Part shown: positions 2,835-64,000 of the stretch, one piece after another | Layout of the letters: each line of letters starts with the position of its first letter | Numbering within the stretch: position 1 is the first letter of the stretch | Assembly (NCBI GenBank): GCA_964036045.1 | Contig: OZ038382.1 | Span: 74,262,687 to 74,326,686 of the forward strand | Origin: Eutreptiella sp. 'Long Island Sound 2002' | Taxonomy: Eukaryota; Euglenozoa; Euglenophyceae; Eutreptiales; Eutreptiaceae | Direction: 5' to 3' | DNA: 64,000 nucleotides | The notes under the pieces: model-generated | Databases searched by the model: none | What the model saw: only the letters and a program-made list of their open reading frames with translations | What the model was told of the DNA's origin: nothing | Translations under genes and position numbers: made by a program

Positions 2835-2839
2835 AGGTG

Positions 2840-13850: not shown

Positions 13851-13960
13851 GGGACGGACGGGCCGGCCTCCCGAGCGCGTGTGGTGCGCCACCGCTTTGT
13901 CCTGGCCGGGTCGGACGGGCCGGCCTCCCGAGCGCGTGCGGTGCGCCACTCCTTATTTTT
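13850..13960. repeat. about 60-bp duplicated X segment
   Basis: Two adjacent copies of GGGCCGGCCTCCCGAGCGCG followed by GGTGCGCCAC occur here. The reverse complement of the same segment is found in X2 at 46140-46190. It is one of the clearest internal anchors showing that X1 and X2 are the same kind of element. Confidence 0.75.
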
Positions 13961-14049
13961 GTTGCGCGGGTGTCGTCGCCCTGCTGCTCGTGGTCCCTTG
14001 CATCGCTCGTGTCTGTGCGGTTCCTGGCCTTAAGCTGGTGTGTGTCCCT

Positions 14050-15905: not shown

Positions 15906-16517
15906 CCCGTGCATGTTCAAAACCAGAAAAAACTGTTCCCTTTTTTCAAAAACAGAAAAAATTGTTTCCCGCTGGTTTTTCCTTGTTTACCCTGTCCTCC
16001 CTGCATGCAACAATACCACACACTGAAAAAACCAGCCTGTTTTTTTTTTTAATTCCTGGCCTTGGGCTGGTGAGCAACGCAGGTCTCGGTCTTGAGGCTT
16101 GCGGTTGCGTCCTCGGGGTGTTTGACACTGTGCACCTGCAGCGAAAGGGGGGGCAAACGCGACGGGGATGGGGCAGTAGCGGGAGGAGAAGGTACATGGA
16201 GAATAAAAAGGGGCGAGAGGCGGCGAGTGCAGGGGCGTAACGTGTTAGAAAACTTTTTCGAGTTTTACACGCTGCTCGCGAAGTCGTTTTCTTTGACTAT
16301 TGGGCACGCACAGCAACGAGGGGCACGTCGTTATGTTCGTACGTTTATTACAGTGCTTACGGCATTAACTATTCACCTATTTTACGTCGAAAATTTCTTC
16401 GTCGCGTTTTTACGCGTTACGCAGCGCGCCTTTTGGCCTAGGCGTTTTTTGTGTTATTTACCTTTAATTTCAGCTGTGTAGAAAATTTTTCCGTCCTGTT
16501 TTACTTATCTTTTGATT

Positions 16518-37247: not shown

Positions 37248-37911
37248 TTGCAAACAAAATTTATAAAGTGATAGGGCCGCGTCCTCACAGTTGGGTATGC
37301 AGCCTACGCGGTGATCCTATCAGTGTTCGCACTGGTCCCATGGGTAGGGATGGCAGAGGCTCCGCATTGATCTTGTTGTCGGCCCATCACTCACGGTATG
37401 AGACGTTGAAGTTGGATGGCATGTACGTTGTGAGCTGTGGAAGATCTCAGTCCAATATTTCTGGCCAAACAATGTTTTCAATGACTCCATAGTTGTTTGC
37501 GTCAACCAGCAAGTCTGCTGATGTCCATACTTTGATAGTGCTTGAATTTCCGCAGCGCGATAGAGCAACATAAACTTCACCATGTGAAAATGGTCGGGTT
37601 GCCAGTAAGAGACCCACTTTTAAATTGGAAAACGTTTGACCTTGGCTTTTGTTAATGGTCATACAGAAGGCTAACTTTACAGGAAATTGGCGCCGAATGA
37701 ATTTGATAGGGAGATCATCATCATCAGATACAGTGAGATTAATTCGGGGTATGCAAACGGAGTTTCCTTTGTGTGTTCCTGTTAGCACCGTTGCTTGGAT
37801 TGTGTAGCGAAGACACGAAGTAACACTCATTCGGGTGCCATTCATAAGGCTAGCAGCACAATTCGAGTTGCGGATGAGTATTATTGGTGCTCCAACCTTA
37901 AGATTGAGACG

Positions 37912-38045
37912 ATGTTGTGGCATTCTTGATGGGAGTAACGATGTTGTGGCATTCCTGATGGGAGTAACATGGGAGTAACAATGTTGTGGCATTCCTGATG
38001 GGAGTAACGTGTTTAAGAACTGATGGGAGTAACGTGTTGAAGAAC
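37912..38045 (-). repeat. intragenic minisatellite in the helicase
   Basis: The word GTTGTGGCATTCCTGATGGG followed by AGTAAC is repeated four to five times with partial units. Each unit re-encodes LLPSGMPQH, a stretch that occurs once in typical Helitron helicases (the LxPxGxPxHxLxLKxGxP region). The expansion shifts frame and disrupts the protein. Confidence 0.8.
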
Positions 38046-38280
38046 TCGTTTGGGTAAATGTTGGTATAGGCGTCAGAATCTTCACCAAAATAATCAGCTG
38101 ACTCATAAACATGTAAATCACCGGGCAATGATTCGCGAATCACAGCATGAATTGTGTCCGCCGTCAAGATACAACGGTCATGAGATGCTTGTCCTGCTGA
38201 AAAGATAGCATCAACCAAACTGCGACAATTATCGCCATTTTGTACCATGTGGGTAGGTAAAGGGAGTGGATTTGGAGTGG

Positions 38281-38286
38281 TGCCAT
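38281..38286. other. LTR element target duplication, left copy
   Basis: TGCCAT precedes the 5' LTR here and follows the 3' LTR at 60345-60350. Depending on the exact LTR end (C, CT or CTG) the duplication is 6, 5 or 4 bp; 5 bp is usual for Ty3/gypsy. Removing the element rejoins the helicase frame around VGDGTT. Confidence 0.75.
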
Positions 38287-39071
38287 AGTAAGAAAAAGTG
38301 CTTTTCCAATGCTTTGAGGCATACTCCAGTTGTATTAGAGATGCACTGAGCATCCAGGCATTTCTATCTTAGTATTGGTCCTACCAAAAGTGGTGATAAC
38401 ACATTTTGACCTATGGAACCAAACACCCAATCAGGATATGGAGTGGACCCCTTAATCCCCTTTCAATGTGAGACAAATCATCTTTTCCTGAGTTGACTGA
38501 GTACTGACATACCCAGGGCAGAGCCTATGAATTTATCTATGTTTTTCCATGAATTCTTAGCTATCCTAGTGGTATGCACCCTAGGAGGCTGGGCACCTCT
38601 TTTTGAGAGGTCCTGGGTTCAATTCCTGGTCAGCCTAGCTAAGTAGGAAGATCCCATGTGACATAGCAGTGACCTCATCGCCACATGCCCTGCCACCTCA
38701 GCACATATGGGACCCAAAACAAAGAGTGCACATCTCCTGAGATGGCACTATGGAGAGAGAGTCACCATGGGGCAGTTTTTCAACTCTTTTCCAAAACATT
38801 TCAGCTATCTTTGTGAATATGCATTCCGATTTGACCTGAGTTGCAGTTTGTGTGAATATCCTATCATCTTTCACTGTTTACACTGCAGCCCTTCATGCTT
38901 TGATCCTGATTCTCTTCTCCTTGCACACCTCTGGCTTGGGTTATCCTGGATTGACTGTATTTCAGCAAACAAAAGGTTTTCATCTCCAAAAACAAGCAGC
39001 AGGAAACCCTACACCAGCAGCAAGCAGCAGGAGAGACAAAAACACAGTGTTGAAACCACTATAAACTTTTC
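38287..39071 (+). repeat. 5' LTR
   Basis: Begins AGTAAGAAAAAGTGC and ends ACTATAAACTTTTC, just before the primer-binding site. It does not have the usual TG...CA ends, but AG...CT would be inverted if one more base is included. It contains a tRNA-like fold at 38586-38636. Its partner is 59560-60344. Confidence 0.9.
38586..38636 (+). ncRNA. tRNA-like fold without a D arm, in the 5' LTR
   Basis: The sequence can be folded as an acceptor stem AGGCTGG/TCAGCCT (7 bp, one wobble), two bases, an anticodon-like arm ACCTC-TTTTTGA-GAGGT (perfect 5-bp stem, 7-base loop) and a T-like arm CTGGG-TTCAATT-CCTGG (5 bp with wobbles), with no D arm. GGGTTCAATTCC fits the Pol III B-box pattern. An A-box-like word (TAGCTATCCTAGTGG) lies upstream at about 38560. 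An identical copy is in the 3' LTR at 59859-59909. It may derive from a tRNA or SINE; function is unproven. Confidence 0.4.
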
Positions 39072-39086
39072 TGGTAGCAGAGGCAG
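39072..39086 (+). promoter_or_regulatory. primer-binding site, Met-tRNA-like
   Basis: TGGTAGCAGAGGCAG directly follows the 5' LTR. It resembles the TGGTATCAGAGC primer-binding site complementary to the 3' end of methionine tRNA in many LTR retrotransposons, with a few differences. Confidence 0.65.
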
Positions 39087-41715: not shown

Positions 41716-43859
41716 ACGTATCCGACTAGGGGGGCGCGAATACCTGGGGGTATTGGACACTGGCGCCACCATATCTATAGTGGCCAAGAATATTTTACCT
41801 TGTGGGAGCCTGAAGAACACCATGACCACCGCTGCTATACGTATGGGGGATGGACATGTGGTGCACAGCTGCGGGGACTGTGAAGTGGAGGTACCTATGG
41901 GCTCCCGGACTATCGCCCATCGGTTCTATGTGATGGACACTGAGGCCTTCGACTTTGTACTGGGTACTGACTTCTTCGTACAGCACTCCCAGATACAATC
42001 CCTGACGCTGCAAGCGCCCTACCTCCTCTACGTGGACCACGGCAGTGGCAGAGAGTCGGTGCCACTGGAGCAGTCGGAACATACCTCGAGTTACCTGAGG
42101 CTATCGAAGAAGGAGCCCTCAAACATGATGGCGGCCTCCAAAACTGAGGACTATCAACTATTGGGGGAAGTCCTAGACCAAGGTCTGAAGGAGTTGGGTT
42201 ACTCTCGAGAAGACCTGAGTGTTGAGTTGTTCGCCAGCGACAAGCAGCATGTACTGGACCTTTACTGCAGCAAGGGGAAGAACTGCAGCTACAAATTTTA
42301 CTGGCCCTCTTTCGGGATGGCCTACGGGAACCCCAGGTTCAGTGAACTGGGGAAGGTCCTGACCAAGGTGGCCTTGGAACGTTCCCGTATGGTCCTTTGT
42401 TCCCCCGATTGGGGAGCCCATGGGGGCAACAAGTACTGGCGAAACCTCCTGGACAGGCTGACTATCAGCTCTGTTCGTTTGCCTGATGAGGCCATCTGCG
42501 TGCCTCTGGGACGCAAGACGCCTATTGGGAAACCCGGATGGGGGAGTATGCTCAGCGTGGTGGACGGAGGTCTTACCTCCATCCGCTGGGAGGATCTGGA
42601 CCCGACCCTGGTCCAGGCTATACAACGAGAAAGCGACGGACTCGCCTTGGGTGACTTGAAGGATCGCCTACGACCTCAAGATGCTATTGAGACTACACCC
42701 GGAGGAGATGAGTACGTCGTGACTGACACCAACGCCCCCAACTCTCCCTGCCATGTACCTGTTCCTGATGGAGTCTCTGAGTGTGGACTATCTGAGCTAC
42801 CTAGCTCTATCCACTCAGATGACGAAACTGAGCACGACGCCTTCTTCGTGCAGACCTGTGTGGAGGAAGTGGAGAACGCCGAGTACGTCGCCCCACTGAA
42901 ACCCCTACTCTCCATGAGGGTGGCAGACCCCGTGGACGAGGAGCTGGACCCTCGATCCAGGCTCAGGGAGTATGTGGATTCCAAGAGGAAGTTGGTGGCG
43001 AAAAAGCTATGCTACGCGAAGCCTACCCGCAGCTCATGGCCACTGAAGCAAGGACGTATGGGAGACCTATCCCAATTGAAGGAGGACCTCGAACAGAAGA
43101 TCACCACCTGGCAAAGGGAGGTAGATCTTAAGCTCATGAAGAGCGTGTGGGGCGCCCATGTGAGGATCCCAGAGGAGGACGACCTCTCGGAGGAATGTGT
43201 ATGTGAACCCCCTCGAGCGTGCCTATGTTGCCATCGTCCATCAGAGATGGTTGAACAAGACCTTCTATATGCCTACCAAGGGCTGAAGGACACTACCACG
43301 GGCGAAGAGTCGGTGGAGGACCGGCTCCCGACGTCTATTACTCAGTGGGCAAGCAACTTACACTCTGACGAGGACATGGAGGACAAGATCAAGATATTGG
43401 ACCCGCGGGTACAGAAGCTTATAAGGACCTATCTGGAGGTGTTCGGAGAACTACCCCCTCCAGCCTCATGTGACAAGCTGGTACAGATGGCCCTCAAGCT
43501 GAAACCCGAGTTCGTGGGTCACAAGATCCGGAGGAGACCCTATCCAGCTCCTAAAGAGCAGGCCGACGAGATTGAGCGACAGATACAAGAATGTATCGAC
43601 GCTGGCCTAGTCCTGGACTACAAGGACGGGGACTACCCCCTACACTGCAGCCCCTGTTTCCTGGTGGCTAAACCCGGGTCTACAGCCAAATGGCTGGTAG
43701 TGGACTACGGAGAGCTGAACAAGAAAACGTTGAACCACTCAGGGTCCATTCCCAATATGGAGTCTACCCTGGAGAAGATAGCCTCCTGTCGCTACAAGAC
43801 CAAAATGGACAAGAGGAGCGGATTCTGGCAAGTGGACCTGACGCCCAATGCACAGGAAC
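41675..43859 (+). pseudogene. pol: pol part 1: protease and start of RT, cut by X2
   Basis: In frame with gag after the TGA. The protease active site GVLDTGATISIV is near the start (DTG intact), followed by VLGTDFFVQHSQ. A family-specific region of about 450 residues follows. It has a Cys-rich segment (CVCEPPRACLCC) and then the RT N-terminus: IRRRPYPAPKEQADEIERQI, HCSPCFLVAKPGSTAKWLVV, KMDKRSGFWQVDLTPNAQE (motif A). At 43859 the coding sequence switches to the head of element X2 and terminates about 17 codons later at 43909. The segment 42082-43859 is repeated at 52770-54547, where pol continues. Confidence 0.9.
42082..43859 (+). repeat. 1,778-bp target duplication, left copy
   Basis: Starts TACCTCGAGTTACCTGAGG and ends CCCAATGCACAGGAAC. 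The right copy at 52770-54547 has exactly the same length, with about 14 substitutions and no indels by eye (0.8%). The two copies lie directly on either side of X2, which is the arrangement of a target-site duplication but about a hundred times longer than usual. Confidence 0.9.
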
Positions 43860-44479
43860 GGAATAAAAAGATAGGTAAAATACGACGAAAACATTTTCTG
43901 AATAGCTGAAAATAAAGCTAATGAGCATAAAAAACGCTTAGGCCAAAAAGCGCGCTGCGAAACGCGTAAAAACGCGACGAAAACTTTTTCGACGTCAAAT
44001 AGGTGAATAGTTAACGCCGTAAGCACCGTAACGCTCGTAGGACCCCAACGCCGTCCTTGCCGTCGTCTAACTCGCTATAGGTGCAAAGAAAAACGCGTCG
44101 CGAGCAGCGCGTAAAACTCGAAAATTTTTCATAACTCGCCACGACCCCTCATGTCGCGCCCTGCCGCCTTTTTCTTCTTCTTCTCCATGCACCTCCCTCC
44201 CCACCCTCGTGCCCATCACTCCCCTTGCCCTGCAGCTCAGGCGGCGGCCCTGGGGGAACGCGGTTAACCCTTAGCAATGGACACCAACACGCTCCACGAC
44301 GCCACGCACAAGCACAAGGCCGAGAACATCAAGAACGACGGGTAGCACGTAAGGCACAGCAACGAACATGGTCTTGCTGCATGCGAGTGTGTTGGGTCGT
44401 GTATAATTTCTTTTTTTTTCAAAAGCAAAAAAAAAAAAAAAAAAGAGGAAAAAAAAATATTTTACGAAATTTTGCGGCG

Positions 44480-46200
44480 GTTTTTCAAGTAGGTACAACC
44501 ACACCCACGCAAGAAACAAACCAGCACAGCACCGCAGGGCAGCACGGCACCGCAGGACACGGCACAGGGCGCAGGACACCACAGGACAACGCACAGCACA
44601 GCAAGACACCACGACACACCAGAGCAGCACCACCACACCGCAGAACGCCCAGGGAGACACCACAACGCACAGGGACACGCCACAGCACGAGGCACCAACA
44701 ACAGCGCAGACGACACTGGCGCCGCACGACGGGCCGCAGGAGGGCAAAGCAAACACAAACAGCACCGCAAAACGACAGCAGAGCACAACAGCACAGCACC
44801 ACACGACAGCACAGCGCCACAGCACACGACACAGGGAAGCAAGGCACCACAGCCAGCACAACAAGGCACCGCAGCGCACAGAGCGGAGAAGACAGGGAAC
44901 ACACAGCACGAGGAAAAGAGCACCACAGCACGCAGACACCACCACCGGGCAAAAAACAGCACAGCCAACCAACAGCACAACGCAGCACAGCACGACAGCC
45001 CACAGGAGGGCAAGGCAAGCCCCAACAGCACCGCAACACGACAGCAGAGCACAACAGCACAGCACCACGCGACAGCACAGCACCACAGAACACGATACAG
45101 GAAAGCAGGGCACCACAGCAAACCACACCAACCACAGGGAAACAGACCACGCGGCCAGACAGGGACACCGACACCGAAACACGCCACCAGCAGACAACCA
45201 CGGGCCACCAGACCCAGCACCGCACCACGGCACACCACAGCACCAGGCGCCAGCAACAGCGAGCACCACACGAACAGCACAACGCAAGCGCACCAGCACG
45301 GCGAAGCACACACCGCACGGAGCGGAGAGGACAGGGAACGCACAGCACAGCACCCCGAGACACACACAGCACAAAGCAGAGCGGCCAACAACAGCACGCA
45401 CCACCGCGCCTCGACAAAACACACACAGCACGGGGGAACACCGCAAAACGCAGCGCCGCAGAGCACAGGGCCCCAGGGCAACCGGCAGCGCCAGAGGGCA
45501 CGGCGCAACAAGCAGCGGCACCCAACGAGCACAACACGGCACAGCACCGCACCCAGGGAGGCACAGCACAACGCAGCACACGGCACACAGCACCGAGCGG
45601 CAGCGACGAAAACCGCGAGACAAAAAGGGGGGGGGGGGGGCAGCAACCGACGGGGAGCAAGCACCAGTCAGGCGGAAAGCACGAAAGAGGGACAAGCGCA
45701 CGGAGAGCCGAGAGGCGGAAGGCCAACAAAGCAAACAACGCACAGCGCCGAGGCCCAGGGCACCCGGGGCCGGAGACCAGAGAAAGCCGGAGACAACGGG
45801 GGCGCACAGGGGAAGAAGGGGAAGAAAAAAAAAAGAAAAAAAAACAAAAAAAAAAAAAAGAAAAAAAACACCAAGGCACCAAGCAGGAGCGACAAAAACA
45901 CCGAGACACAAAAAGGGAGGGGGTGGGGGGAGAAACCACCAAAGAGCAGCCAACGGCCAAGCAGGAGACACAAACGACGCGCGAGCGCACGAAGAGCCAG
46001 GCAGCGGGAGGCCGAGAAAAACAACCAAAGCACGGCGCCAAGGCAACGAGGAACAGCAAGGGCAGCGAGAGAGCGGGGGGCAACCCCAGCCCGGAGGGGG
46101 CCAAGCAAAGCAGAAAGACAAAGCGGCCGAAGGAAAAGGTGTGGCGCACCACAACGCGCCCGGGAGGCCGGCCCGCCCGACCCGGCCACAAAGAGCAAGC
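44480..46200 (+). other. nearly T-free tract of X2
   Basis: Built of words like CAGCACAGCACCACAGGACA. Many consecutive 60-base lines contain no T or only one. All three forward frames are therefore open and translate as Gln/His/Thr/Pro/Arg-rich repeats without domain character. Matches the reverse complement of the 14.0-15.9 kb tract in X1 in texture and order. Confidence 0.8.
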
Positions 46201-46202
46201 AC

Positions 46203-46440
46203 ACGCACGCCAGCCGCCGTCCGGATGGACGAGTGCGCGCCCGGAGGGTACCCAGCCCCTGCCGGCTACGATCAGCCGCCGTCCGGATGGACGAGTGCGC
46301 GCCCGGAGGGTACCCAGCCCCTGCCGGCTAGGAACAGCCGCCGTCCGGATGGACGTGTGTGCGCCCGGCGGCTACCCAGCCCCTGCCGGCTACGATAGCC
46401 GCCCTCCGGATGGACGAGTGAGCGCTCGCAGCGACGCCCC
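46203..46440 (+). repeat. about 62-bp tandem repeat, four copies
   Basis: GCCGCCGTCCGGATGGACG recurs at about 46213, 46275, 46337 and 46398, each followed by GCCCGG and CCCAGCCCCTGCCGGCTA. It directly precedes the 65-bp array. Confidence 0.85.
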
Positions 46441-49400
46441 GCACAGCAACACAACACAGCGAGCGGGCACACCGGTGAACAGGAGCCGGGAGGCCCAGGA
46501 CACCGCACACGCAACACAACACACCGAGCGGGCGCACCGGTGAACAGGAGCCGGGAGGCCCAGGACACCGCACACGCAACACAACACACCGAGCAGGCAC
46601 ACCGGTGAACAGGAGCCGGAGGCCCAGGACACCGCACACGCAACACAACACACCGAGCGGGTACACCGGTGAACAGGAGCCGGGAGGCCCAGGACACCGC
46701 ACACGCAACACAACACACCGAGCGGGCACACCGGTGAACAGGAGCCGGGAGGCCCAGGACACCGCACACGCAAAACAACACACCGAGCAGGCACACCGGT
46801 GAACAGGAGCCGGGGGGCCCAGGACACCGCACACGCAACACAACACAGCGAGCCGGCACACCGGTGAACAGGAGCCGGGAGGCCCAGGACACCGCACACG
46901 CAACACAACACACCGAGCGGGCACACCGGTGAACAGGAGCCGGGAGGCCCAGGACACCGCACACGCAACACAACACACCGAGCGGGCACACCGGTGAACA
47001 GGAGCCGGGGGGCCCAGGACACCGCACACGCAACACAACACACCGAGCGGGCACACCGGTGAACAGGAGCCGGAGGCCCAGGACACCGCACACGCAACAC
47101 AACACAGCGAGCGGGCACACCGGAGAACAGGAGCCGGGAGGCCCAGGACACCGCACACGCAACACAACACACCGAGCGGGCACACCGGTGAACAGGAGCC
47201 GGAGGCCCAGGACACCGCACACGCAACGCACCACACCGAGCGGGCACACCGGTGAACAGGAGCCGGAGGCCCAGGACACCGCACACGCCACACAACACAC
47301 CGAGCGGGCACACCGGTGAACAGGAGCCGGGGGGCCCAGGACACCGCACACGCAAAACAACACACCGAGCGGGCACACCGGTGAACAGGAGCCGGAGGCC
47401 CAGGACACCGCACACGCAACACAACACACCGAGCGGGCACACCGGTGAACAGGAGCCGGAGGCCCAGGACACCGCACACGCAACACACCACACCGAGCGG
47501 GCACACCGGTGAACAGGAGCCGGGGGGCCCAGGACACCGCACACGCAACACAACACACCGAGCGGCCACACCGGTGAACAGGAGCCGGGAGGCCCAAGAC
47601 ACCGCACACGCAACACAACACACCGAGCGGGCACACCGGTGAACAGGAGCCGGGAGGCCCAGGACACCGCACACGCAACACAACACACCGAGCGTGCACA
47701 CCGGTGAACAGGAGCCTGGAGGCCCAGGACACCGCACACGCAACACAACACACCGAGCGGGCACACCGGTGAACAGGAGCCGGGAGGCCCAGGACACCGC
47801 ACACGCAACACAACACACCGAGCGGGCACACCGGTGAACAGGAGCCGGAGGCCCAGGACACCGCACACGCAACAAAACACACCGAGCGGGCACACCGGTG
47901 AACAGGAGCCGGGGGGCCCAGGACACCGCACACGCAACACAACACACCGAGCAGGCACACCGATGAACAGGAGCCGGAGGCCCAGGACACTGCACACGCA
48001 ACACAACACACCGAGCGGGCACACCGGTGAACAGGAGCCGGGAGGCCCTGGACACCGCACACGCAACACAACACACCGAGCGGGCACACCGCTGAACAGG
48101 AGCCGGAGGCCCAGGACACCGCACACGCAACACACCACACCGAGCGGGCACACCGGTGAACAGGAGCCGGGGGGCCCAGGACACCGCACACGCAACACAA
48201 CACACCGAGCGGGCACAACGGTGAACAGGAGCCGGGAGGCCCAGGACACCGCACACGCAACACAACACACCGAGCGGGCACACCGGTGAACAGGAGCCGG
48301 AGGCCCAGGACACCGCACACGCAACACACCACACCGAGCGGGCACACCGGTGAACAGGAGCCGGGGGGCCCAGGACACCGCACATGCAACACAACACACC
48401 GAGCGGGCACACCGGTGAACAGGAGCCGGAGGCCCAGGACACCGCACACGCAACACAACACACCGAGCGGGCACACCGGTGAACAGGAGCCGGGAGGCCC
48501 AGGACACCGCACACGCAACACAACACACCGAGCGGGCACACCGGTGAACAGGAGCCGGGGGGCCCAGGACACCGCACACGCAACACAACACACCGAGCGG
48601 GCACACCGGTGAACAGGAGCCGGAGGCCCAGGACACCGCACACGCAACACACCACACCGAGCGGGCACACCGGTGAACAGGAGCCGGGGGGCCCAGGACA
48701 CCGAACATGCAACACAACACACCGAGCGGGCACACCGGTGAACAGGAGCCGGAGGCCCAGGACACCGCACACGCAACACAACACACCGAGCAGGCACACG
48801 GGTGAACAGGAGCCGGGAGGCCCAGGACACCGCACACGCAACACAACACACCGAGCGGGCACACCGGTGAACAGGAGCCTGGAGGCCCAGGACACCGCAC
48901 ACGCAACACAACACACCGAGCGGGCACACCGGTGAACAGGAGCCGGGAGGCCCAGGACACCGCACACGCAACACAACACACCGAGCGGGCACACCGGTGA
49001 ACAGGAGCCGGGGGGCCCAGGACACCGCACACGCAACACAACACACCGAGCGGGCACACCGGTGAACAGGAGCCGGAGGCCCAGGACACCGCACACGCAA
49101 CACACCACACCGAGCGGGCACACCGGTGAACAGGAGCCGGGGGGCCCAGGACACCGCACATGCAACACAACACACCGAGCGGGCACACCGGTGAACAGGA
49201 GCCGGAGGCCCAGGACACCGCACACGCAACACAACACACCGAGCAGGCACACCGGTGAACAGGAGCCGGGAGGCCCAGGACACCGCACACGCAACACAAC
49301 ACACCGAGCGGGCACACCGGTGAACAGGAGCCTGGAGGCCCAGGACACCGCACACGCAACACAACACACCGAGCGGGCACACCGGTGAACAGGAGCCGGA

Positions 49401-52203
49401 GGCCCAGGACACCGCACATGCAACACACCACACCGAGCGGGCACACCGGTGAACAGGAGCCGGGGGGCCCAGGACACCGCACACGCAACACAACACACCG
49501 AGCGGGCACACCGGTGAACAGGAGCCGGAGGCCCAGGACACCGCACACGCAACGCACCACACCGAGCGGGCACACCGGTGAACAGGAGCCGGGGGGCCCA
49601 GGACACCGCACACGCAACACACCACACCGAGCGGGCACACCGGTGAACAGGAGCCGGAGGCTCAGGACACCGCACACGCAACGCACCACACCGAGCGGGC
49701 ACACCGGTGAACAGGAGCCGGGGGGCCCAGGACACCGCACACGCAACACACCACACCGAGCGGGCACACCGGTGAACAGGAGCCGGAGGCCCAGGACACC
49801 GCACACGCAACGCACCACACCGAGCGGGCACACCGGTGAACAGGAGCCGGGGGGCCCAGGACACCGCACACGCAAAACAACACACCGAGCGGGCACACCG
49901 GTGAACAGGAGCCGGAGGCCCAGGACACCGCACACGCAACACAACACACCGAGCGGGCACACCGGTGAACAGGAGCCGGAGGCCCAGGACACCGCACACG
50001 CAACACACCACACCGAGCGGGCACACCGGTGAACAGGAGCCGGGGGGCCCAGGACACCGCACACGCAACACAACACACCGAGCGGGCACACCGGTGAACA
50101 GGAGCCGGGAGGCCCAAGACACCGCACACGCAACACAACACACCGAGCGGGCACACCGGTGAACAGGAGCCGGGAGGCCCAGGACACCGCACACGCAACA
50201 CAACACACCGAGCGTGCACACCGGTGAACAGGAGCCTGGAGGCTCAGGACACCGCACACGCAACACAACACACCGAGCGGGCACACCGGTGAACAGGAGC
50301 CGGGAGGCCCAGGACACCGCACACGCAACACAACACACCGAGCGGGCACACCGGTGAACAGGAGCCGGAGGCCAAGGACACCGCACACGCAACAAAACAC
50401 ACCGAGCGGGCACACCGGTGAACAGGAGCCGGGGGGCCCAGGACACCGCACACGCAACACAACACACCGAGCAGGCACACCGGTGAACAGGAGCCGGAGG
50501 CCCCGGACACTGCACACGCAACACAACACACCGAGCGGGCACACCGGTGAACAGGAGCCGGGAGGCCCTGGACACCGCACACGCAACACAACACACCGAG
50601 CGGGCACACCGCTGAACAGGAGCCGGAGGCCCAGGACACCGCACACGCAACACACCACACCGAGCGGGCACACCGGTGAACAGGAGCCGGGGGGCCCAGG
50701 ACACCGCACACGCAACACAACACACCGAGCGGGCACACCGGTGAACAGGAGCCGGGAGGCCCAGGACACCGCACACGCAACACAACACACCGAGCGGGCA
50801 CACCGGTGAACAGGAGCCGGAGGCCCAGGACACCGCACACGCAACACAACACACCGAGCGGGCACACCGGTGAACAGGAGCCGGGGGGCCCAGGACACCG
50901 CACATGCAACACAACACACCGAGCGGGCACACCGGTGAACAGGAGCCGGAGGCCCAGGACACCGCACACGCAACACAACACACCGAGCGGGCACACCGGT
51001 GAACAGGAGCCGGGAGGCCCAGGACACCGCACACGCAACACAACACACCGAGCGGGCACACCGGTGAACAGGAGCCGGGGGGCCCAGGACACCGCACACG
51101 CAACACAACACACCGAGCAGGCACACCGGTGAACAGGAGCCGGAGGCCCAGGACACCGCACACGCAACACACCACACCGAGCGGGCACACCGGTGAACAG
51201 GAGCCGGGGGGCCCAGGACACCGCACATGCAACACAACACACCGAGCGGGCACACCGGTGAACAGGAGCCGGAGGCCCAGGACACCGCACACGCAACACA
51301 ACACACCGAGCAGGCACACCGGTGAACAGGAGCCGGGAGGCCCAGGACACCGCACACGCAACACAACACACCGAGCGGGCACACCGGTGAACAGGAGCCT
51401 GGAGGCCCAGGACACCGCACACGCAACACACCACACCGAGCGGGCACACCGGTGAACAGGAGCCGGGAGGCCCAGGACACCGCACACGCAACACAACACA
51501 CCGAGCGGGCACACCGGTGAACAGGAGCCGGGGGGCCCAGGACACCGCACACGCAACACAACACACCGAGCGGGCACACCGGTGAACAGGAGCCGGAGGC
51601 CCAGGACACCGCACACGCAACACACCACACCGAGCGGGCACACCGGTGAACAGGAGCCGGGGGGCCCAGGACACCGCACATGCAACACAACACACCGAGC
51701 GGGCACACCGGTGAACAGGAGCCGGAGGCCCAGGACACCGCACACGCAACACAACACACCGAGCAGGCACACCGGTGAACAGGAGCCGGGAGGCCCAGGA
51801 CACCGCACACGCAACACAACACACCGAGCGGGCACACCGGTGAACAGGAGCCTGGAGGCCCAGGACACCGCACACGCAACACAACACACCGAGCAGGCAC
51901 ACCGGTGAACAGGAGCCGGAGGCCCAGGACACCGCACACGCAACACACCACACCGAGCGGGCACACCGGTGAACAGGAGCCGGGGGGCCCAGGACACCGC
52001 ACACGCAACACAACACACCGAGCGGGCACACCGGTGAACAGGAGCCGGAGGCCCAGGACACCGCACACGCAACACACCACACCGAGCGGGCACACCGGTG
52101 CACAGGAGCCGGGGGGCCCAGGACACCGCACACCCAACACAACACGGCAAGCGGGCACATCGGTGAACAGGAGCCGGGAGGCCCAGGACACCGCACACAC
52201 GTA
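46441..52203 (+). repeat. 65-bp satellite array, about 88 copies, higher-order structure
   Basis: The unit begins CACCGGTGAACAGGAGCC and ends AACACACCGAGCGGG, with length 64-66 depending on the G count after GAGCC. Successive starts include 46470 and 46535. Marker variants recur 2,520 bp apart: GAGCGTGCAC at about 47692 and 50212, AACAAAACAC at about 47870 and 50390, and CACCGCTGAAC at about 48088 and 50608. Smaller repeats of 5 and 7 units also occur (48286, 48609, 49062). The 2,000-residue Cys/Val-rich frames on the minus strand are a consequence of the array. Confidence 0.95.
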
Positions 52204-52773
52204 GGGCGGCCGGGGGACAGGAAAGAACCAACACCCCATGGGTCGGACACACTGGCGCGACCCAGCCGACCCACCGGGCCAGTGGCAGGAGCGGTACTCC
52301 AAGGCTGCTGGTCCGAGCCAGGCCAGGCTGCATCGGGGACCATGGCAAACGTCACCCGGACCCATGGATGCAACCGGTGACAGGCGAGCCGGTACACAGT
52401 CCAGGAGGGGGTCGCCTGCCAAGCGGAGCGGCCCCGCAACTCAAGCCACAAGGGTGAGGCGGTCGTACCGTAGACAAGCGGGAGCAAGACCCCTTGTGGT
52501 GAGAGATACTCCACACGGCTGGGCAGCCCCCAGAGCTGCCGCCCGAAGGAGGGGGCATGTGGCCCTACTCATGGACACATGTGGGGACACCCTCCCACCT
52601 GGGACACATGGACCGGGTGGCCGCGACAATGCCTTCCCAAGCACATGCGGGAGCGGCTCAAGAGGCACCTGACATAGGGCAGTGGGAGGGACAGGACCTC
52701 CCCTTGGTAAGACCTTCTTCCTGCACCGTCAAAGGAGGCATCCCGAGCAACCGAAGATACCTACCTACCTACC
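52204..52773 (+). other. unique 3' tail of X2 ending in ACCT repeats
   Basis: Non-repetitive GC-rich sequence of about 550 bp. It parallels the X1 tail: CCCCTTGGTAAG (52702 here; reverse complement near 10015 in X1), then a short spacer and ACCT tetranucleotides (52757-52773), after which the target sequence resumes. The last TACCT overlaps the target word TACCTCGAG, so the junction is ambiguous by 4-5 bases. Confidence 0.6.
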
Positions 52774-54547
52774 TCGAGTTACCTGAGGCTATCGAAGGAG
52801 GAGCCCTCAAACATGATGGCGGCCTCCAAAACTGAGGACTATCAACTATTGGGGGAAGTCCTAGACCAAGGTCTGAAGGAGTTGGGTTACTCTCGAGAGG
52901 ACCTGAGTGTTGAGTTGTTCGCCAGCGACAAGCAGCATGTACTGGACCTTTACTGCAGCAAGGGGAAGAACTGCAGCTACAAATTTTACTGGCCCTCTTT
53001 CGGGATGGCCTACGGGAACCCCAGGTTCAGTGAACTGGGGAAGGTCCTGACCAAGGTGGCCTTGGAACGTTCCCGTATGGTCCTGTGTTCCCCCGATTGG
53101 GGAGCCCATGGGGGCAACAAGTACTGGCGAAACCTCCTGGACAGGCTGACTATCAGCTCTGTTCGTTTGCCTGATGAGGCCATCTGCGTGCCTCTGGGAC
53201 GCAAGACGCCTATTGGGAAACCCGGATGGGGGAGTATGCTCAGCGTGGTGGACGGAGGTCTTACCTCCATCCGCTGGGAGGATCTGGACCCGACCCTGGT
53301 CCAGGCTATACAACGAGAAAGCGACGGACTCGCCTTGGGTGACTTGAAGGATCGCCTACGACCTCAAGATGCTATTGAGACTACACCCGGAGGAGATGAG
53401 TACGTCGTGACTGACACCAACGCCCCCAACTCTCCCTGCCATGTACCTGTTCCTGATGGAGTCTCTGAGTGTGGACTATCTGAGCTACCTAGCTCTATCC
53501 ACTCAGATGACGAAACCGAGCAGGACGCCTTCTTCGTGCAGACCTGTGTGGAGGAAGTGGAGAACGCCGAGTACGTCGCCCCACTGAAACCCCTACTCTC
53601 CATGAGGGTGGAAGACCCCGTGGACGAGGAGCTGAACCCTCGATCCAGGCTCAGGGAGTATGTGGATTCCAAGAGGAAGTTGGTGGCGAAAAAGCTATGC
53701 TACGCGAAGCCTACCCGCAGCTCATGGCCACTGAAGCAAGGACGTATGGGAGACCTATCCCAATTGAAGGAGGACCTCGAACAGAAGATCACCACCTGGC
53801 AAAGGGAGGTAGATCTTAAGCTCATGAAGAGCGTGTGGGGCGCCCATGTGAGGATCCCAGAGGAGGACGACCTCTCGGAGGAATGTGTATGTGAACCCCC
53901 TCGAGCGTGCCTATGTTGCCATCGTCCATTGGAGATGGTTGAACAAGACCTTCTATATGCCTACCAAGGGCTGAAGGACACTACCACGGGCGAAGAGTCG
54001 GTGGAGGACCACCTCCCGACGTCTATTACTCAGTGGGCAAGCAACTTACACTCTGACGAGGACATGGAGGACAAGATCAAGATATTGGACCCGCGGGTAC
54101 AGAAGCTTATAAGGACCTATCTGGAGGTGTTCGGAGAACTACCCCCTCCAGCCTCATGTGACAAGCTGGTACAGATGGACCTCAAGCTGAAACCCGAGTT
54201 CGTGGGTCACAAGATCCGGAGGAGACCCTATCCAGCTCCTAAAGAGCAGGCCGACGAGATTGAGCGACAGATACAAGAATGTATCGACGCTGGCCTAGTC
54301 CTGGAGTACAAGGACGGGGACTACCCCCTACACTGCAGCCCCTGTTTCCTGGTGGCTAAACCCGGGTCTACAGCCAAATGGCTGGTAGTGGACTACGGAG
54401 AGCTGGACAAGAAAACGTTGAACCACTCAGGGTCCATTCCCAATATGGAGTCTACCCTGGAGAAGATAGCCTCCTGTCGCTACAAGACCAAAATGGACAA
54501 GAGGAGCGGATTCTGGCAAGTGGACCTGACGCCCAATGCACAGGAAC
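52770..54547 (+). repeat. 1,778-bp target duplication, right copy
   Basis: Duplicate of 42082-43859. Differences include several amino-acid changes (EHD to EQD, ELD to ELN, RPSE to RPLE, DRL to DHL, MAL to MDL, LDY to LEY, ELN to ELD). From 54548 the pol frame continues normally. Confidence 0.9.
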
Positions 54548-57294
54548 TACTGGCCTTCATCACCCCTCAGGGGAGGGTGTTCAAGTGGAAGGTCATGCCG
54601 TTTGGCGTGGCTAACGCACCCGCTCTATTCCAAGAGCTGATGAACAAGACCTTGTCCATCCTACGAAGGAGACCTAAGGTGCAGGAGCTCATATCCCGTG
54701 GTGCCCAGATGGAGGCTCACATCGACGATGTATGCCTCGGGACCAATACCCAGGAGGATCACCTAATCCTCTTGGGTGAGTTCTTTGCGGTCTGCCAGGA
54801 GAACCACACACCACTCAAGCTGGAGAAGTGTGAGTTCATGCAGGAGACCATGCAGTACCTGGGGTTTGACGTTGGCTATGGGTGGTGGACCCCAGCGGCC
54901 TCTAAGGCCAAACCCCTGATGGATGCCAAGGTACGACACGAAGACCCCAAGAAAGGATTTCATGATGTACGCAGTTTCATTGGGGCGTGCAACTTCTATC
55001 GCCGCCATATCAAAAACTTCACCTACACCAGCGCCATTCTGACGGACTTGATCAAGAAGAGTACTACTTGGCGCTGGGGCCCACAAGAGCAGCAAGCGTT
55101 TGACGAGCTCAAAGACAAGGTGGCCAACGCTAAGTGCTTGGGCGTGCCTAGGGCACAAGGGGAGATTATCCTGGTGACCGACGCCAGCAATGTGGGCGGT
55201 GGTGGAACCTTGTTCCAATGGCAAGCACTAGAGAAGGAGGAGTTCGACTCGGCCATTTCCCAATGGGGGACGGAAGGTCTCAACCGAGATGGAACCCTCA
55301 AGCACAGCTACCGTGACGACAAGTGGGTCCTAGTACCTCTGGGCCACTGGAACTGGAAGTGGAACCAGGCCAGGGGGAACTACTCCACCTATGAGCAGGA
55401 ATTGCTCGCGGGTATGCTGGTGCTATCCTCACAAGCACGACTGTTGGGGAGTAACCCTGTGGTCTGGCTGTGCGACCAAGAACCGGTCCGCAGTTTCCAG
55501 AAGGGTCCCCCACCTGAGAGGGCCAAGCTACGGCGCTGGTGGACCTACCTCAGTCAACTACGGCTGACGGTACACCATATTCAGGGAGTGAAGAACGAGT
55601 GTGCCGACTACATCAGCCGCAAAAACTTCGACGCCCTGATTGGTGCCCGGTCTGAAGCGCTGGCTAAGGAGGAGTTCAGCCGTATGGACGTCCACTTGGA
55701 CCTGAACATGACGATGATACGCCCCCTGGATGGACTCCAACAATCGGAGTACCTGAAGGAGTTTGGGGATATCTACAAGCGCCTGGAGAAACGCCTTGAA
55801 CCCCTCCTGGTCAACCAAGACCAGTGGAAGAGGGACAAGAGCTACCTCTGGCACGAGGACCGCATCGTGGTGCCTAGTGACCGAGTCCCAGCGCTGCTGA
55901 AGTGGACCCATGAGTTCAGCGGTCATGTGGGTGCTGACCGTACCCTGAGGCTGTTCAAGCAGTGGTTCCACACTACGTGGACTGACGACCAACTGCGGAA
56001 AACCCTCCAGCCCATTGTGGACAAGTGCCCGTGCAGGTCCTGTAAACCAGGGGATATCAGGGACAGAGGTCTCTACTCGACCCTGCCCATCCCTCACTGT
56101 GCTAACAGTGTTCTATACGTGGACTACACGGAGATGCCGAAGTTCGGGGGTTATGACTTCGCCCTCGTGGTAACCTGTGGGTTGACCAGGTTTACCAGGG
56201 TGTTCCCATGTACCAAGCACATTACCGGGGAGGAGACTATCAAGATACTCCTGGAGGAGTGGTTTTGTGTCTATGGGGCGCCCAAGGAGATCAACTCCGA
56301 TGAGGACGTACGAGTACGCTCAGATACTGGCTGGTACAAGAGGGTCCTGAGATCCCTCAATGTCCAGTTGTCTACGGGGATTCCCTACTCTCACACGAGC
56401 AACCCCCTATGTCAGCGACAGATCCGGGTCCTCAAGGAGAACGTAAGGATATGGTGCAAAACTGAACGCACCAGGGACTGGGTGAGACTACTCCCCGTCA
56501 TATCCTTGATGATGAACTCCCAAGAGAGTTCAGCTACTGGCTACTCGCCCCATGAGCTTTTCCTGGGGCGCCCGGCATGGTTCCTACATGCCCCCTATCC
56601 AGAGGACACCCATTCTTCTGTGGGTGAATGGGTCCAAGAGCAACAAGCGAAGGTGGACAAGGCCAAGGCTATGCTCCAGAGAGTGAGGGAGCGTGAGTGG
56701 AACAAGAAGAACAAGCACCGAGTACCGGCCACCTACCAAGAGGGGGACTGGGTGCTGGTGCACCACAGTCGACTACCCGCCTGGCCACGCTCTACCAGCG
56801 ATGACCCATACTTCGGGCCGTACAAGATTCTATCAGTGGATGGACACCGTATCACCGTGCGGTGTTCTCCCCGTCTAGGGGGGACCCTGGTGTGCGCTGC
56901 TCAACACCTGAAGCGCTACTATGATCCTGAAGACCTCTGTGGGGAGGAGTGGGAGCTGAACTACGAGGAAATCGCCGCTCTGGACCTACAAGGGGCTGCG
57001 AGCCCTATGGAAGTTGAGGGTGAACTCCCCGACATGAACGCCGACGAAATGGCTAAGGAGGGCTTCTACCTGGTGAAGTCTGTCCTACGCCACCGCTATC
57101 GCCAGGGTTGGCGCTTCCTCACCCTCTGGGAAGGGTTTGGAGTCAAAGAGGCCACCTGGGAGCCCTTCTCTGCATTTGTTCTACCTGAGGGACGCCTAAA
57201 CTCAGTTCTGGTTGACTACTTGTCCCAGAACAACCTTGGTGAGTTGCTGAGGCTCGCTGAGACGCTTGCCTCCAAGACTAAAGCTAGGGACTGA
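52813..57294 (+). CDS. pol: pol part 2: RT, RNase H, integrase, chromodomain
   Basis: A 1,493-residue frame ending at the TGA at 57292-57294; its first ATG lies inside the duplicated segment. RT (about residues 480-720): FWQVDLTPNAQE, FKWKVMPFGVANAPALFQEL, and a motif C reading MEAHIDDVCL, that is HIDD where YxDD is usual. RNase H (about 780-900): LVTDASNVGGGG, STYEQELLAGML, WLCDQEP. Integrase zinc finger: HEFSGH and CPCRSC (about 1030-1078). Catalytic core: YVDYTEM, INSDEDVR, then NPLCQRQIRVLKENV, where Gln occupies the place of the third catalytic Glu. C-terminal chromodomain (about 1415-1482): EGFYLVKSVLRHRYRQG, LTLWEGFGVKEATWEP. It is uninterrupted, but without gag and protease in cis because of X2. 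Confidence 0.9.
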   Translation: MMAASKTEDYQLLGEVLDQGLKELGYSREDLSVELFASDKQHVLDLYCSKGKNCSYKFYWPSFGMAYGNPRFSELGKVLTKVALERSRMVLCSPDWGAHGGNKYWRNLLDRLTISSVRLPDEAICVPLGRKTPIGKPGWGSMLSVVDGGLTSIRWEDLDPTLVQAIQRESDGLALGDLKDRLRPQDAIETTPGGDEYVVTDTNAPNSPCHVPVPDGVSECGLSELPSSIHSDDETEQDAFFVQTCVEEVENAEYVAPLKPLLSMRVEDPVDEELNPRSRLREYVDSKRKLVAKKLCYAKPTRSSWPLKQGRMGDLSQLKEDLEQKITTWQREVDLKLMKSVWGAHVRIPEEDDLSEECVCEPPRACLCCHRPLEMVEQDLLYAYQGLKDTTTGEESVEDHLPTSITQWASNLHSDEDMEDKIKILDPRVQKLIRTYLEVFGELPPPASCDKLVQMDLKLKPEFVGHKIRRRPYPAPKEQADEIERQIQECIDAGLVLEYKDGDYPLHCSPCFLVAKPGSTAKWLVVDYGELDKKTLNHSGSIPNMESTLEKIASCRYKTKMDKRSGFWQVDLTPNAQELLAFITPQGRVFKWKVMPFGVANAPALFQELMNKTLSILRRRPKVQELISRGAQMEAHIDDVCLGTNTQEDHLILLGEFFAVCQENHTPLKLEKCEFMQETMQYLGFDVGYGWWTPAASKAKPLMDAKVRHEDPKKGFHDVRSFIGACNFYRRHIKNFTYTSAILTDLIKKSTTWRWGPQEQQAFDELKDKVANAKCLGVPRAQGEIILVTDASNVGGGGTLFQWQALEKEEFDSAISQWGTEGLNRDGTLKHSYRDDKWVLVPLGHWNWKWNQARGNYSTYEQELLAGMLVLSSQARLLGSNPVVWLCDQEPVRSFQKGPPPERAKLRRWWTYLSQLRLTVHHIQGVKNECADYISRKNFDALIGARSEALAKEEFSRMDVHLDLNMTMIRPLDGLQQSEYLKEFGDIYKRLEKRLEPLLVNQDQWKRDKSYLWHEDRIVVPSDRVPALLKWTHEFSGHVGADRTLRLFKQWFHTTWTDDQLRKTLQPIVDKCPCRSCKPGDIRDRGLYSTLPIPHCANSVLYVDYTEMPKFGGYDFALVVTCGLTRFTRVFPCTKHITGEETIKILLEEWFCVYGAPKEINSDEDVRVRSDTGWYKRVLRSLNVQLSTGIPYSHTSNPLCQRQIRVLKENVRIWCKTERTRDWVRLLPVISLMMNSQESSATGYSPHELFLGRPAWFLHAPYPEDTHSSVGEWVQEQQAKVDKAKAMLQRVREREWNKKNKHRVPATYQEGDWVLVHHSRLPAWPRSTSDDPYFGPYKILSVDGHRITVRCSPRLGGTLVCAAQHLKRYYDPEDLCGEEWELNYEEIAALDLQGAASPMEVEGELPDMNADEMAKEGFYLVKSVLRHRYRQGWRFLTLWEGFGVKEATWEPFSAFVLPEGRLNSVLVDYLSQNNLGELLRLAETLASKTKARD

Positions 57295-59559: not shown

Positions 59560-60344
59560 AGTAAGAAAAAGTGCTTTTCCAATGCTTTGAGGCATACTCT
59601 AGTTGTATTAGAGATGCACTGAGCATCCAGGCATTTCTATCTTAGTATTGGTCCTACCAAAAGTGGTGATAACACATTTTGACCTATGGAACCAAACACC
59701 CAATCAGGATATGGAGTGGACCCCTTAATCCCCTTTCAATGTGAGGCAAATCATCTTTTCCTGAGTTGACTGAGTACTGACATATCCAGGGCAGAGCCTA
59801 TGAATTCATCTATGTTTTTCCATGAATTCTTAGCTATCCTAGTGGTATGCACCCTAGGAGGCTGGGCACCTCTTTTTGAGAGGTCCTGGGTTCAATTCCT
59901 GGTCAGCCTAGCTAAGTAGGAAGATCCCATGTGACATGGCAGTGACCTCATCGCCACATGTCCTGCCACCTCAGCACATATGGGACCCAAAACAAAGAGT
60001 GCACATCTCCTGAGATGGCACTATGGAGAGAGAGTGACCATGGGGCAGTTTTCCAACTCTTTTCCAAAACATTTCAGCTATCTTTGTGAATATGCATTCC
60101 GATTTGACCTGAGTTGCAGTTTCTGTGAATATCCTATCATCTTTCACTGTTTACACTGCAGCCCTTCATGCTTTGATCCTGATTCTCTTCTCCTTGCAGA
60201 CCTCTGGCTTGGGTTATCCTGGATTGACTGTATTTCAGCAAACAAAAGGTTTTCATCTCCAAAAACAAGCAGCAGGAAACCCTACACCAGCAGCAAGCAG
60301 CAGGAGAGACAAAAACACAGTGTTGAAACCACTATAAACTTTTC
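59560..60344 (+). repeat. 3' LTR
   Basis: 785 bp, the same length as the 5' LTR, with about 10 substitutions and no indels. It carries the same tRNA-like fold (59859-59909) and is followed by the target duplicate TGCCAT at 60345-60350. Confidence 0.9.
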
Positions 60345-60430
60345 TGCCATCACCAACTTGTACAAGCCAACTGCCATGTGCCGTGCTGTGCAGCGCCTGC
60401 GCTGGCGCTTCCGATAACATCGACGGATAG
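60345..60430 (-). pseudogene. Helitron helicase fragment, upstream side of the LTR insertion
   Basis: On the minus strand this reads into GSWLVQVGDG, which meets GTTPNPLPLP from 38286 when the LTR element is ignored. WLLxxGDG is a recurrent motif in Helitron/Pif1-like helicases, so the two parts belong together. Upstream the frame hits TAG near 60437 and no further helicase is recognisable, so the 5' half of the gene is lost or rearranged. Confidence 0.7.
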
Positions 60431-60676
60431 CGCTAACAGGTGGTTCTGGGAGTAGTTACAGGCGGTTAGCGCCCGCTCGGCCAACTGAACAGCCAGAATC
60501 GGCGAAGATGCAACCGTACTTCACACCGATCAATGCGCCTCAGAAATGCGCATACATCTGTGTAATTAGGAAAAAAAATGCCGCCTTGTAGCATAAATTC
60601 TTTTCTGCGATGCGCACACGCGCGCCGCCGGCACGCCCGCGCCTGGACACGACGACCAGTCCGAAAATAATTGAAA
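60431..60676. other. short unassigned spacer
   Basis: Contains a stretch CGCACACGCGCGCCGCCGGC like the CGCGCGCG segment of the adjacent satellite, so it may be a diverged, truncated satellite unit fused to the Helitron relic. No Helitron 5' end could be identified with confidence. Confidence 0.35.
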
Positions 60677-63600
60677 CTAGTGTGAATGCCCGCGCTTGAA
60701 GCGCGGGCCATATCACCATATCACCATAGCACCATATCTCACACCGCACCGCATTTCACATACCCAATACAACACACCTCATGTCCCGTACCTCATATCC
60801 CGTGCCACCTGACTCATGTCTCAAACATCATATCCCGTACTCTATGAGTGAAACTTACCCCTCCTAAACTGTACTCTGATAGCACATTTGACACCGCGAT
60901 TCGCATAATCCATATTTCCAAACACATCACCCATACCTCACACTGTGTACAACATACCGCATATCCCTTACCTCGTATCCCGTACCTCATGACTCATGTC
61001 TCAAACCTCATATCCCGTACTCCATAAGCGAGAGAACTGTCGCCACTGCTGCCTGTTGGCTAAAATCGCCAAAAGTGAACAGGCGGGATTATTCGTGCAC
61101 ATACCTGGATAATCGATAGTACAGTACATACAAATTACATGAATCCATGATTTCAGATCGATTTCTCGTGCCAGAAATCGAAATCGCAAATCCGCCAGAT
61201 GCCATTTGACGGGCACGCGCGCGCGCCAGCAGCAGCGAGCACAATTGGGAGGATTTTTTGGGTATGAGGAACGACGACGACAACGACGACAACGACGACG
61301 ACGTCCATACCACAATTAAATATATTAGCTAGTGCGAATGCCCGCGCTTGAAGCGCGGGCCATATCACCATAGCACCATAGCACCATATCTAACACCGCA
61401 CCGCATTTCACATACCCAATACAACACACCTCATGTCCCGTACCTCATATCCCGTGCCACCTGACTCATGTCTCAAACATCATATCCCGTACTCTATGAG
61501 TGAAACTTACCCCTCCAAAACTGAACCCTGACAGCACATTTGACACCTCGATTCGCATAATCCATATTTCCAAGCACATCACCCATACCTCACACTGTGT
61601 ACAACATACCGCATATCCCGTACCTCGTATCCCGTACCTCATGACTCATGTCTCAAACCTCATATCCCGTACTCTATCAAACATCATATCCCGTACTCTA
61701 TGAGTGAAATATACCCCTCCTAAACTGTACCCTGACACCACATTTGACACCGCGATTCGCATATTCCATAATTCCAAACACATCACCCATGCCTCACACT
61801 GTGTACAACATACCGCATATCCCGTACCTCGTATCCTGTACCTCATGACTCATGTCTCAAACCTCATATCCCGTACTCTATAAGCGAGAGAACTGTCGCC
61901 ACTGCTGCCTGTTGGCTAAAATCGCCAAAAGTCAACAGGCGGGATTATTCGTGCAGATACCCGGATAATCGATTGTACAGTACATTCAAATTACATGAAT
62001 CCATGATTTCAGATCGATTTGTCGTGCCAGAAATCGAAATCGCAAATCCGCCAGATGCCATTTGACAGGCACGCGCGCGCGCCAGCAGCAGCGTGCACAA
62101 TTGGGAGGATTTTTTGGGTATGACGAACGACGACGACGACGACGACGACCATATCACAATTAAATATATTAACTAGTGCGAATGCCCGCGCTTGAAGCGC
62201 GGGCCATATCACCAAATCACCATAGCACCATATCTGACACCGCACCGCATTCCACATATTCAATACAACACACCTCATGTCCCGTACCTCATATCCCGTG
62301 CCACCTGACTCATGTCTCAAACATCATATCCCGTACTCTATGAGTGAAACTTACCCCTCCTAAACTGTACTCTGACAGCACATTTAACACCGCGATTCGC
62401 ATAATCCATATTTCCAAACACATCACCCATACCTCACACTGTGTACAACATACCGCATATCCCGTACCTGGTATCCCGTACCTCATGACTCATGTCTCAA
62501 ACCTCATATCCCGTACTGTATAAGGGAGAGAACTGTCGCCACTGCTGCCTGTTGGCTAAAATCGCCAAAAGTCAACAGGCGGGATTATTCGTGCAGATAC
62601 CCGGATAATCGATAGTACAGTACATACAAATTACATGAATCCATGATTTCAGATCGATTTGTCGTGCAAGAAATCGAAATCGCAAATCCGCCAGATGCCA
62701 TTTGACAGGCACGCGCGCGCGCCAGCAGCAGCGTGCACAATTGGGAGGATTTTTTGGGTATGACGAACGACGACGACGACGACGACGACCATATCACAAT
62801 TAAATATATTAACTAGTGCGAATGCCCGCGCTTGAAGCGCGGGCCATATCACCAAATCACCATAGCACCATATCTGACACCGCACCGCATTCCACATATT
62901 CAATACAACACACCTCATGTCCCGTACCTCATATCCCGTGCCACCTGACTCATGTCTCAAACATCATATCCCGTACTCTATGAGTGAAACTTACCCCTCC
63001 TAAACTGTACTCTGACAGCACATTTGACACCGCGATTCGCATAATCCATATTTCAAAACACATCACCCATACCTCACACTGTGTACAACATACCGCATAT
63101 CCCGTACCTGGTATCCCGTACCTCATGACTCATGTCTCAAACCTCATATCCCGTACTGTATAAGGGAGAGAACTGTCGCCACTCCTGCCTGTTGGCTAAA
63201 ATCGCCAAAAGTCAACAGGCGGGATTATTCGTGCAGATACCCGGATAATCGATAGTACAGTACATACAAATTACATGAATCCATGATTTCAGATCGATTT
63301 GTCGTGCCAGAAATCGAAATCGCAAATCCGCCAGATGCCATTTGACGGGCACGCGCGCGCGCCAGCAGCAGCGTGCACAATTGGGAGGATTTTTTGGGTA
63401 TGACGAACGACGACGACGACGACGACGACCATATCACAATTAAATATATTAACTAGTGCGAATGCCCGCGCTTGAAGCGCGGGCCATATCACCATATCAC
63501 CATAGCACCATATCTCACACCGCACCGCATTTCACATACCCAATACAACACACCTCATGTCCCGTACCTCATATCCCGTGCCACCTTACTCATGTCTCAA

Positions 63601-64000
63601 ACATCATATCCCATACTCTATGAGTGAAACTTACCCCTCCTAAACTGCACTCTGATAGCACATTTGACACCGCGATTCGCATAATCCATATTTCCAAACA
63701 CATCACCCATACCTCACACTGTGTACAACATACCGCATATCCCGTACCTCGTATCCCGTACCTCATGACTCATGTCTCAAACCTGATATCCCGTACTCTG
63801 TAAGCGAGAGAACTGTCGCCACTGCTGCCTGTTGGCTAGAATCGCCAAAAGTGAACAGATACCCGGATAATCGATTGTGGAGTACATACAGATTTTTGAA
63901 ACACGTGATACCATGATTTCAGATCGATTTGTCGTGCCAGAAATCGAAATCGCAAATCCGCCAGATGCCATTTGACGGGCACGCGCGCGCGCCAGCAGCA
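60677..64000 (-). repeat. about 640-bp satellite, each unit ending as a Helitron 3' terminus
   Basis: CTAG followed by a hairpin (CCCGCGCTT/AAGCGCGGG, plus strand) occurs at 60677, 61329, 62173, 62813 and 63453. Spacings are 652, 844, 640 and 640 bp; the 844-bp unit has an internal duplication of about 200 bp near 61600-61860. On the minus strand each reads hairpin, about 8 bases, CTAG, T, the Helitron 3' signature. Units also carry a CGA microsatellite, a CGCGCGCG tract and many TATCCCGTACCTCAT words. The array leaves the window at 64000. Confidence 0.85.
62109..62150. repeat. (CGA)n microsatellite within satellite units
   Basis: CGACGACGACGACGACGAC-type runs recur in each unit (about 61270-61305, 62126-62149, 62766-62789, 63406-63429), with slightly different lengths. 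They account for poly-Val/Ser frames in this block. Confidence 0.85.

Follow-up and report, generated by a model that had tools for sequence, protein, structure and literature searches.

Target duplications that accompany L1 insertion usually measure 5–30 bp, those over 100 bp being reported for at most 10% of the events in HeLa cells (PMC5223499); the extremely long ones in these cells are described mainly for 5'-truncated copies, and the full-length insertions exhibit duplications of 10–17 bp (PMC2912911). For NER-deficient human cells the reported range extends from 5 bp to 5.3 kb with a median of 1,495 bp, 18 of the 47 events over 100 bp are stated to exceed 1 kb, and duplications of up to 1.6 kb are given also for the complemented cells (PMC5223499). 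The authors of that study attribute the second break to a distant nick, in a proposal that they label as speculative (PMC5223499). Their study is the kilobase precedent that we found in the literature, in which subscription papers were little covered, and others may be published.

The locus described here lies within a window of 64,000 nt (the whole stretch of DNA that was analysed) from Eutreptiella sp. 'Long Island Sound 2002' (contig OZ038382.1, forward strand, positions 74,262,687–74,326,686), and comprises an insert, X2, flanked on both sides by the same segment of the pol region of a gypsy element (Table 1). Like LINE-1 in HeLa cells and primates, X2 is inserted in an oriented manner, ends in a 3' repeat tail and is accompanied by a target duplication (PMC5223499, PMC2912911), and like L1 in the NER-deficient cells it is associated with a target duplication of kilobase size (PMC5223499). 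The latter insertions were, however, obtained in laboratory cells with defective repair and from an engineered, poly-A-tailed L1 (PMC5223499), whereas X2 resides in a natural genome, is ACCT-tailed, spans ~9 kb and carries no recognised protein, and its duplication has been retained long enough to gain 14 substitutions. Moreover, the long duplications in HeLa cells are described mostly for 5'-truncated L1, whereas X2 keeps its head (PMC2912911). An earlier note on this DNA implied that the kilobase length sets X2 apart from known insertions, which does not agree with the L1 duplications that exceed 1 kb in the NER-deficient cells and reach 1.6 kb in the complemented ones (PMC5223499).

Table 1. 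Features of the window discussed in the text (positions counted from the first nucleotide of the window).
Feature	Positions	Strand	Details
Left copy of the duplicated pol segment	42082–43859	+	versus 52770–54547: 14 substitutions, 0 indels; no in-frame stop
Right copy of the duplicated pol segment	52770–54547	+	reads in frame into the remaining pol; stop-to-stop ORF 52711–57294
X2 insert	43860–52769	+	~8.9 kb; conserved head to ~44179, T-poor interior, tail region, ACCT-repeat end
65-bp unit array inside X2	46439–52198	+	~5.8 kb
X2 tail (ACCT)4	52759–52774	+	last unit overlaps the TACCT that opens the target copy
Gypsy 5' LTR	38287–39072	+	786 bp; 777/787 identity with 59560–60346, no gaps
Gypsy 3' LTR	59560–60345	+	from LTR–LTR alignment, ends read
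Gypsy target duplication, left copy	38282–38286	.	GCCAT; with an LTR end one base earlier, 6 bp (TGCCAT)
Gypsy target duplication, right copy	60346–60350	.	GCCAT, or TGCCAT with shifted LTR end
Pif1 helicase 2B domain	37450–38139		left part of the gene hit by gypsy; Pfam
X1, second X-family copy	9960–16523	-	head at 16523, ACCT-repeat end 9961–9972; nhmmer head and tail matches
X1 head-side repeat copy, part	16788–17290	-	entire copy would be ~16526–17290 (765 bp)
X1 tail-side repeat copy	9456–9959	-	504 bp, cut off at 9455/9456 beside a T-rich array
APE-type LINE of this genome	RT 16679–17671	-	relatives P0238 onward; target of X1

The duplicated pol segment and its gypsy host

Direct alignment of the two pol copies confirmed the positions given in the earlier note, with 1,778 bp in each copy, 14 substitutions and no indels, and chance is no issue for a match of this length at 99.2% identity. 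The equal length of the copies, which that note points out, adds no evidence, because copies without indels are necessarily equal. The BLAST match is longer (42079–43859 and 52767–54547, 99.158% of 1,781), with three extra bases on the left that cost a 15th mismatch, so that 42082/52770 represents the better edge of the duplication. Both copies open with TACCT, which is compatible with the target as well as with the ACCT-repeat tail of X2 and could come from either, hence the duplication proper comprises 1,773–1,778 bp. No leftover bases separate the copies from the insert: the left copy runs up to the X2 head, which is known from the other X copy of the window (X1), and the right copy begins inside the last ACCT unit of the tail, in line with the exact abutment described before. 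A scan of the window for non-adjacent direct repeats of at least 80 bp, with the array 46000–52300 left out, listed 17 pairs; outside the tandem region 60646–64000, the only pairs longer than 300 bp were the LTR pair, the pol pair and the pair that flanks X1. The tandem region itself is a duplication with units of ~640 bp (~94–96%) that continues past the window end. The pol duplication looks like a version of the usual short insertion duplication, lengthened about a hundred-fold.

The element that carries X2 exhibits the features of Gypsy (Metaviridae), i.e. LTRs, a short target duplication and RT–RNase H located ahead of integrase. The Pfam analysis of its interior identified protease, RT (RVT_1), RNase H and integrase in the gypsy order, with the integrase match (rve, 30.6 bits) below the cut-off of 32.6 and the gag-asp match also below its Pfam cut-off. 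The LTR ends read AG...CT; LTRs usually end in TG...CA. GGTAGCAGAG, found directly after the 5' LTR, may serve as a tRNA primer site. Elsewhere in the window, an integrase core domain (PF00665, 23179–23958) belongs probably to a second LTR-type element.

TGCCAT is present at both outer ends of the gypsy element and, together with the identity of the LTRs, this looks like one gypsy insertion. A single insertion had been claimed before on the grounds of the matched TGCCAT and of a helicase frame that can be rejoined across the gypsy site; the former argument stands, strengthened by the LTR alignment (777/787), and the latter carries little weight. The rejoined frame is indeed open over 156 aa, to which the right-hand side contributes 27, but the same holds for two shifted joins (185 and 163 aa), so the open frame adds little. 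The Pif1-type gene that carries the gypsy element possibly encodes a Helitron-like helicase.

The divergence of the pol duplicate (0.79%, 95% interval 0.43–1.32) and that of the LTRs (1.27%, 0.61–2.34) do not differ significantly (p = 0.27). As the former is not above the latter, the required order of events, gypsy followed by X2, is respected, and in the best explanation the gypsy element was young when X2 arrived. The copies differ at 12 codons, nine of them non-synonymously, a share near the expectation for no selection (0.69 per substitution), and the lack of stops in the copies is unremarkable (probability 0.56). Comparison with the listed relatives assigned the rare or derived residue at the changed codons to the left copy in five cases and to the right copy in three, with one unclear, codon 386, at which both copies depart from the family majority; the state at codon 250, one of the three rare states of the right copy, is present also in 6 of 114 listed relatives. 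At the amino-acid level, the pol copies have decayed after the duplication, with changes on both sides.

Origin of the two pol copies

The translations of the left and right pol copies (L and R) were compared with relatives from protein searches, drawn from the best 120 of 546 and the best 120 of 629 matches (236 proteins retrieved, 131 passing the 80% identity filter, 114 covering more than 300 positions); these proteins each represent a 90% identity cluster, in which any closer sister copies would be concealed. With a rare residue defined, at a threshold of our choice, as a state found in no more than 5% of the relatives, L and R share six such residues, including one found in 0 of 117 listed relatives, and possess five (L) and three (R) private ones; at a looser threshold of 25% they share 10 states. 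As a control, the shared rare count was determined for 6,293 pairs of listed relatives and scaled to 592 aa. The usual count is 0 (4,547 pairs round to it), only four pairs round to at least six, and two share six residues unscaled. The four pairs are unlike L–R, being 12–18% divergent with 15–38 private rare states per side. L and R differ by 1.5% at the amino-acid level, and the nearest of the 114 listed relatives by 3.4% (from L) and 3.1% (from R), each of these relatives sharing at most two rare states with L or with R.

This combination of shared rare residues with few private ones argues that both pol copies most likely stem from one gypsy copy, and the best reading of the alignments would be a local duplication tied to the arrival of X2 rather than a fusion of two gypsies. 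The joining of two gypsy copies, which the earlier note disfavoured on account of the outer ends, is thus disfavoured also by the six residues common to L and R, which are independent of those ends. The large size of the gypsy family, with 6,186 members in one 90% cluster, speaks for recombination between two different X-bearing copies or for a pol tandem duplication that came first and received X2 exactly in its joint; the shared rare residues and the matched outer TGCCAT contradict the recombination, a precise hit on a single joint is improbable, and we consider this pair of scenarios hardly credible. An artefact, either a misassembly or a chimera of haplotypes, might be suspected in such a repeat-rich region, with the 5.8-kb array of 65-bp units within X2; it is nevertheless quite unlikely, since the pol copies exhibit private changes yet common rare ones, and the joints coincide with the X termini on both sides, unlike an arbitrary join.

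The X family and its second copy

Two retroposon traits were found in the X copies: a simple-repeat 3' tail, which is (ACCT)4 in X2 and a run of ACCT repeats on the minus strand in X1, and a common 5' end, the heads of X1 and X2 aligning from the first bases (n = 2; 79% over 326 columns). Together with the way X is oriented, these two traits suggest that it is a non-LTR retroposon. As to terminal repeats of X2 itself, no inverted pairs of at least 60 bp were found in 38000–60000. Pfam families were absent from four X2 and four X1 reading frames, so no RT or endonuclease was found in those eight frames. Both copies are strongly T-depleted on their own strand along 9960–16523 and 43860–52769 and contain long tandem arrays; their long open frames result from the fact that stops need T, in which X is poor over most of its length. 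The Rfam search gave no match at gathering in the window, the two matches of the X2 head being far below their gathering scores, and one 21-base pattern of the X head had no match in viral contigs, a set that may omit records of this genome. Head and tail models built for nhmmer from X1 and X2 themselves retrieved no other heads or tails above the inclusion threshold in the window.

X1 is located within the RT sequence of a LINE (RVT_1, 27.1 bits, below the cut-off of 29.6). Relatives of this APE-type LINE carry RVT_1, and one (P0343) carries PF03372, the endonuclease/exonuclease/phosphatase domain. This LINE might supply the machinery by which X is moved, a match between its 3' end and the X tail being hypothetical.

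The repeats that flank X1 are identical at 485 of 507 positions including the edges, or at 95.8% of 504 columns with 21 differences, one of them a gap. They occur in the duplication order, the two joints being ~765 bp apart in the target, with that of the head downstream. No credible continuation of the X1 target was found in 1–9455, where one tblastn match occurred in the 2700 bin. The region 4600–9455 is T-rich with nested arrays of 157 bp and 471 bp and is possibly a third X-like element, with no recognisable head or tail. At the protein level, the two repeats differ from each other at 12 of 148 aa and from their nearest relatives at 11 and 10 of 148; only 0.6% of 2,407 relative pairs are closer than the two repeats, which share no rare residues and have five private ones each. 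Since 1,971 of the 2,407 pairs also share none, the rare-residue test is weak on 148 aa. X1 was rejected as a clean second case because this control is not in its favour, the nearest relatives being at least as close. According to the earlier note, ordinary short duplications at other X copies would speak against the unusual length at X2. The single other copy recognised in the window (n = 1) exhibits at its tail a 504-bp repeat (96%) in place of an ordinary short duplication and so does not refute that length, with the qualification that this repeat is truncated and shares no rare residues with its counterpart. X1 would fit an earlier duplication of the X2 kind, without proving it.

Proposed mechanism of the X2 duplication and its meaning

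Both ends of X2 are abutted by copies of one pre-insertion sequence, as in kilobase duplications of the L1 type. The polarity agrees with target-primed insertion: the tail lies next to the first bases of the duplicated segment, and these include an ACCT of the target. Such an ACCT would fit pairing between tail and primer, of which the end state alone is visible. We regard it as probable that X2 represents a single target-primed insertion, with the second break ~1.8 kb away, in one young gypsy element. X2 would be a retroposon-like element of large size that is probably mobilised in trans. The bottom strand would be nicked at the ACCT of 42083–42086, and the nicked 3' end, paired with the ACCT-repeat tail of the X RNA, would prime the first cDNA strand; the top strand would be broken, or would prime the second strand, ~1.78 kb downstream, at 43859/43860. 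Filling-in of both arms would leave the 1.78-kb segment once per side, which is the end state seen in the window, and the two copies would then drift apart, with the 14 substitutions distributed on both sides. As the tested X frames contain no Pfam families, TPRT is for X2 a process that we infer. The length of the stagger is the only odd part of the target-primed reading, and it may be driven by the element or by the host; the X2 case represents, at kilobase scale and in a natural genome, an insertion outcome that is already known.

The identical end state, including the origin of both copies from one gypsy element and the exact abutment, would arise in a single event also if the X2 cDNA was joined to the sister chromatid or homologue 1.78 kb downstream. 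No sequence feature separates this unequal chromatid join from the target-primed insertion, but it requires two DNA molecules where one is enough, and it appears unlikely. Could X2 instead be a hybrid, with the 5' junction of one X and the 3' junction of another, produced by a crossover between two insertions that occupied one gypsy element, on two homologues, at a distance of 1.78 kb? The exact abutment and the one gypsy origin would then be explained without a long stagger, at the cost of a crossover preceded by two X insertions that hit one gypsy copy independently; moreover, a deletion would be an equally likely product, yet X1 and X2 both exhibit the duplication order, which renders the crossover very unlikely.

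If X2 is indeed a single target-primed insertion with a distant second break, does the X family behave in this way as a rule? It is possible, as a tentative generalization, that X elements regularly insert with target duplications of ~0.8–1.8 kb, the second-strand break being made far from the first, either by their own integration machinery or in a host without the repair step that keeps the breaks close. If so, each X insertion would leave direct repeats of host DNA the size of LTRs, and the family would provide a natural counterpart of the L1 products from NER-deficient human cells. Segmental duplications, and later losses of X through recombination, would then also arise from it. Second-strand cutting and joining belong to those steps of LINE-type insertion that are least understood. 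A natural family that routinely leaves kilobase duplications would open the second-strand step to a genome survey and to the comparison of repair genes between hosts, and it would steadily generate small segmental duplications.
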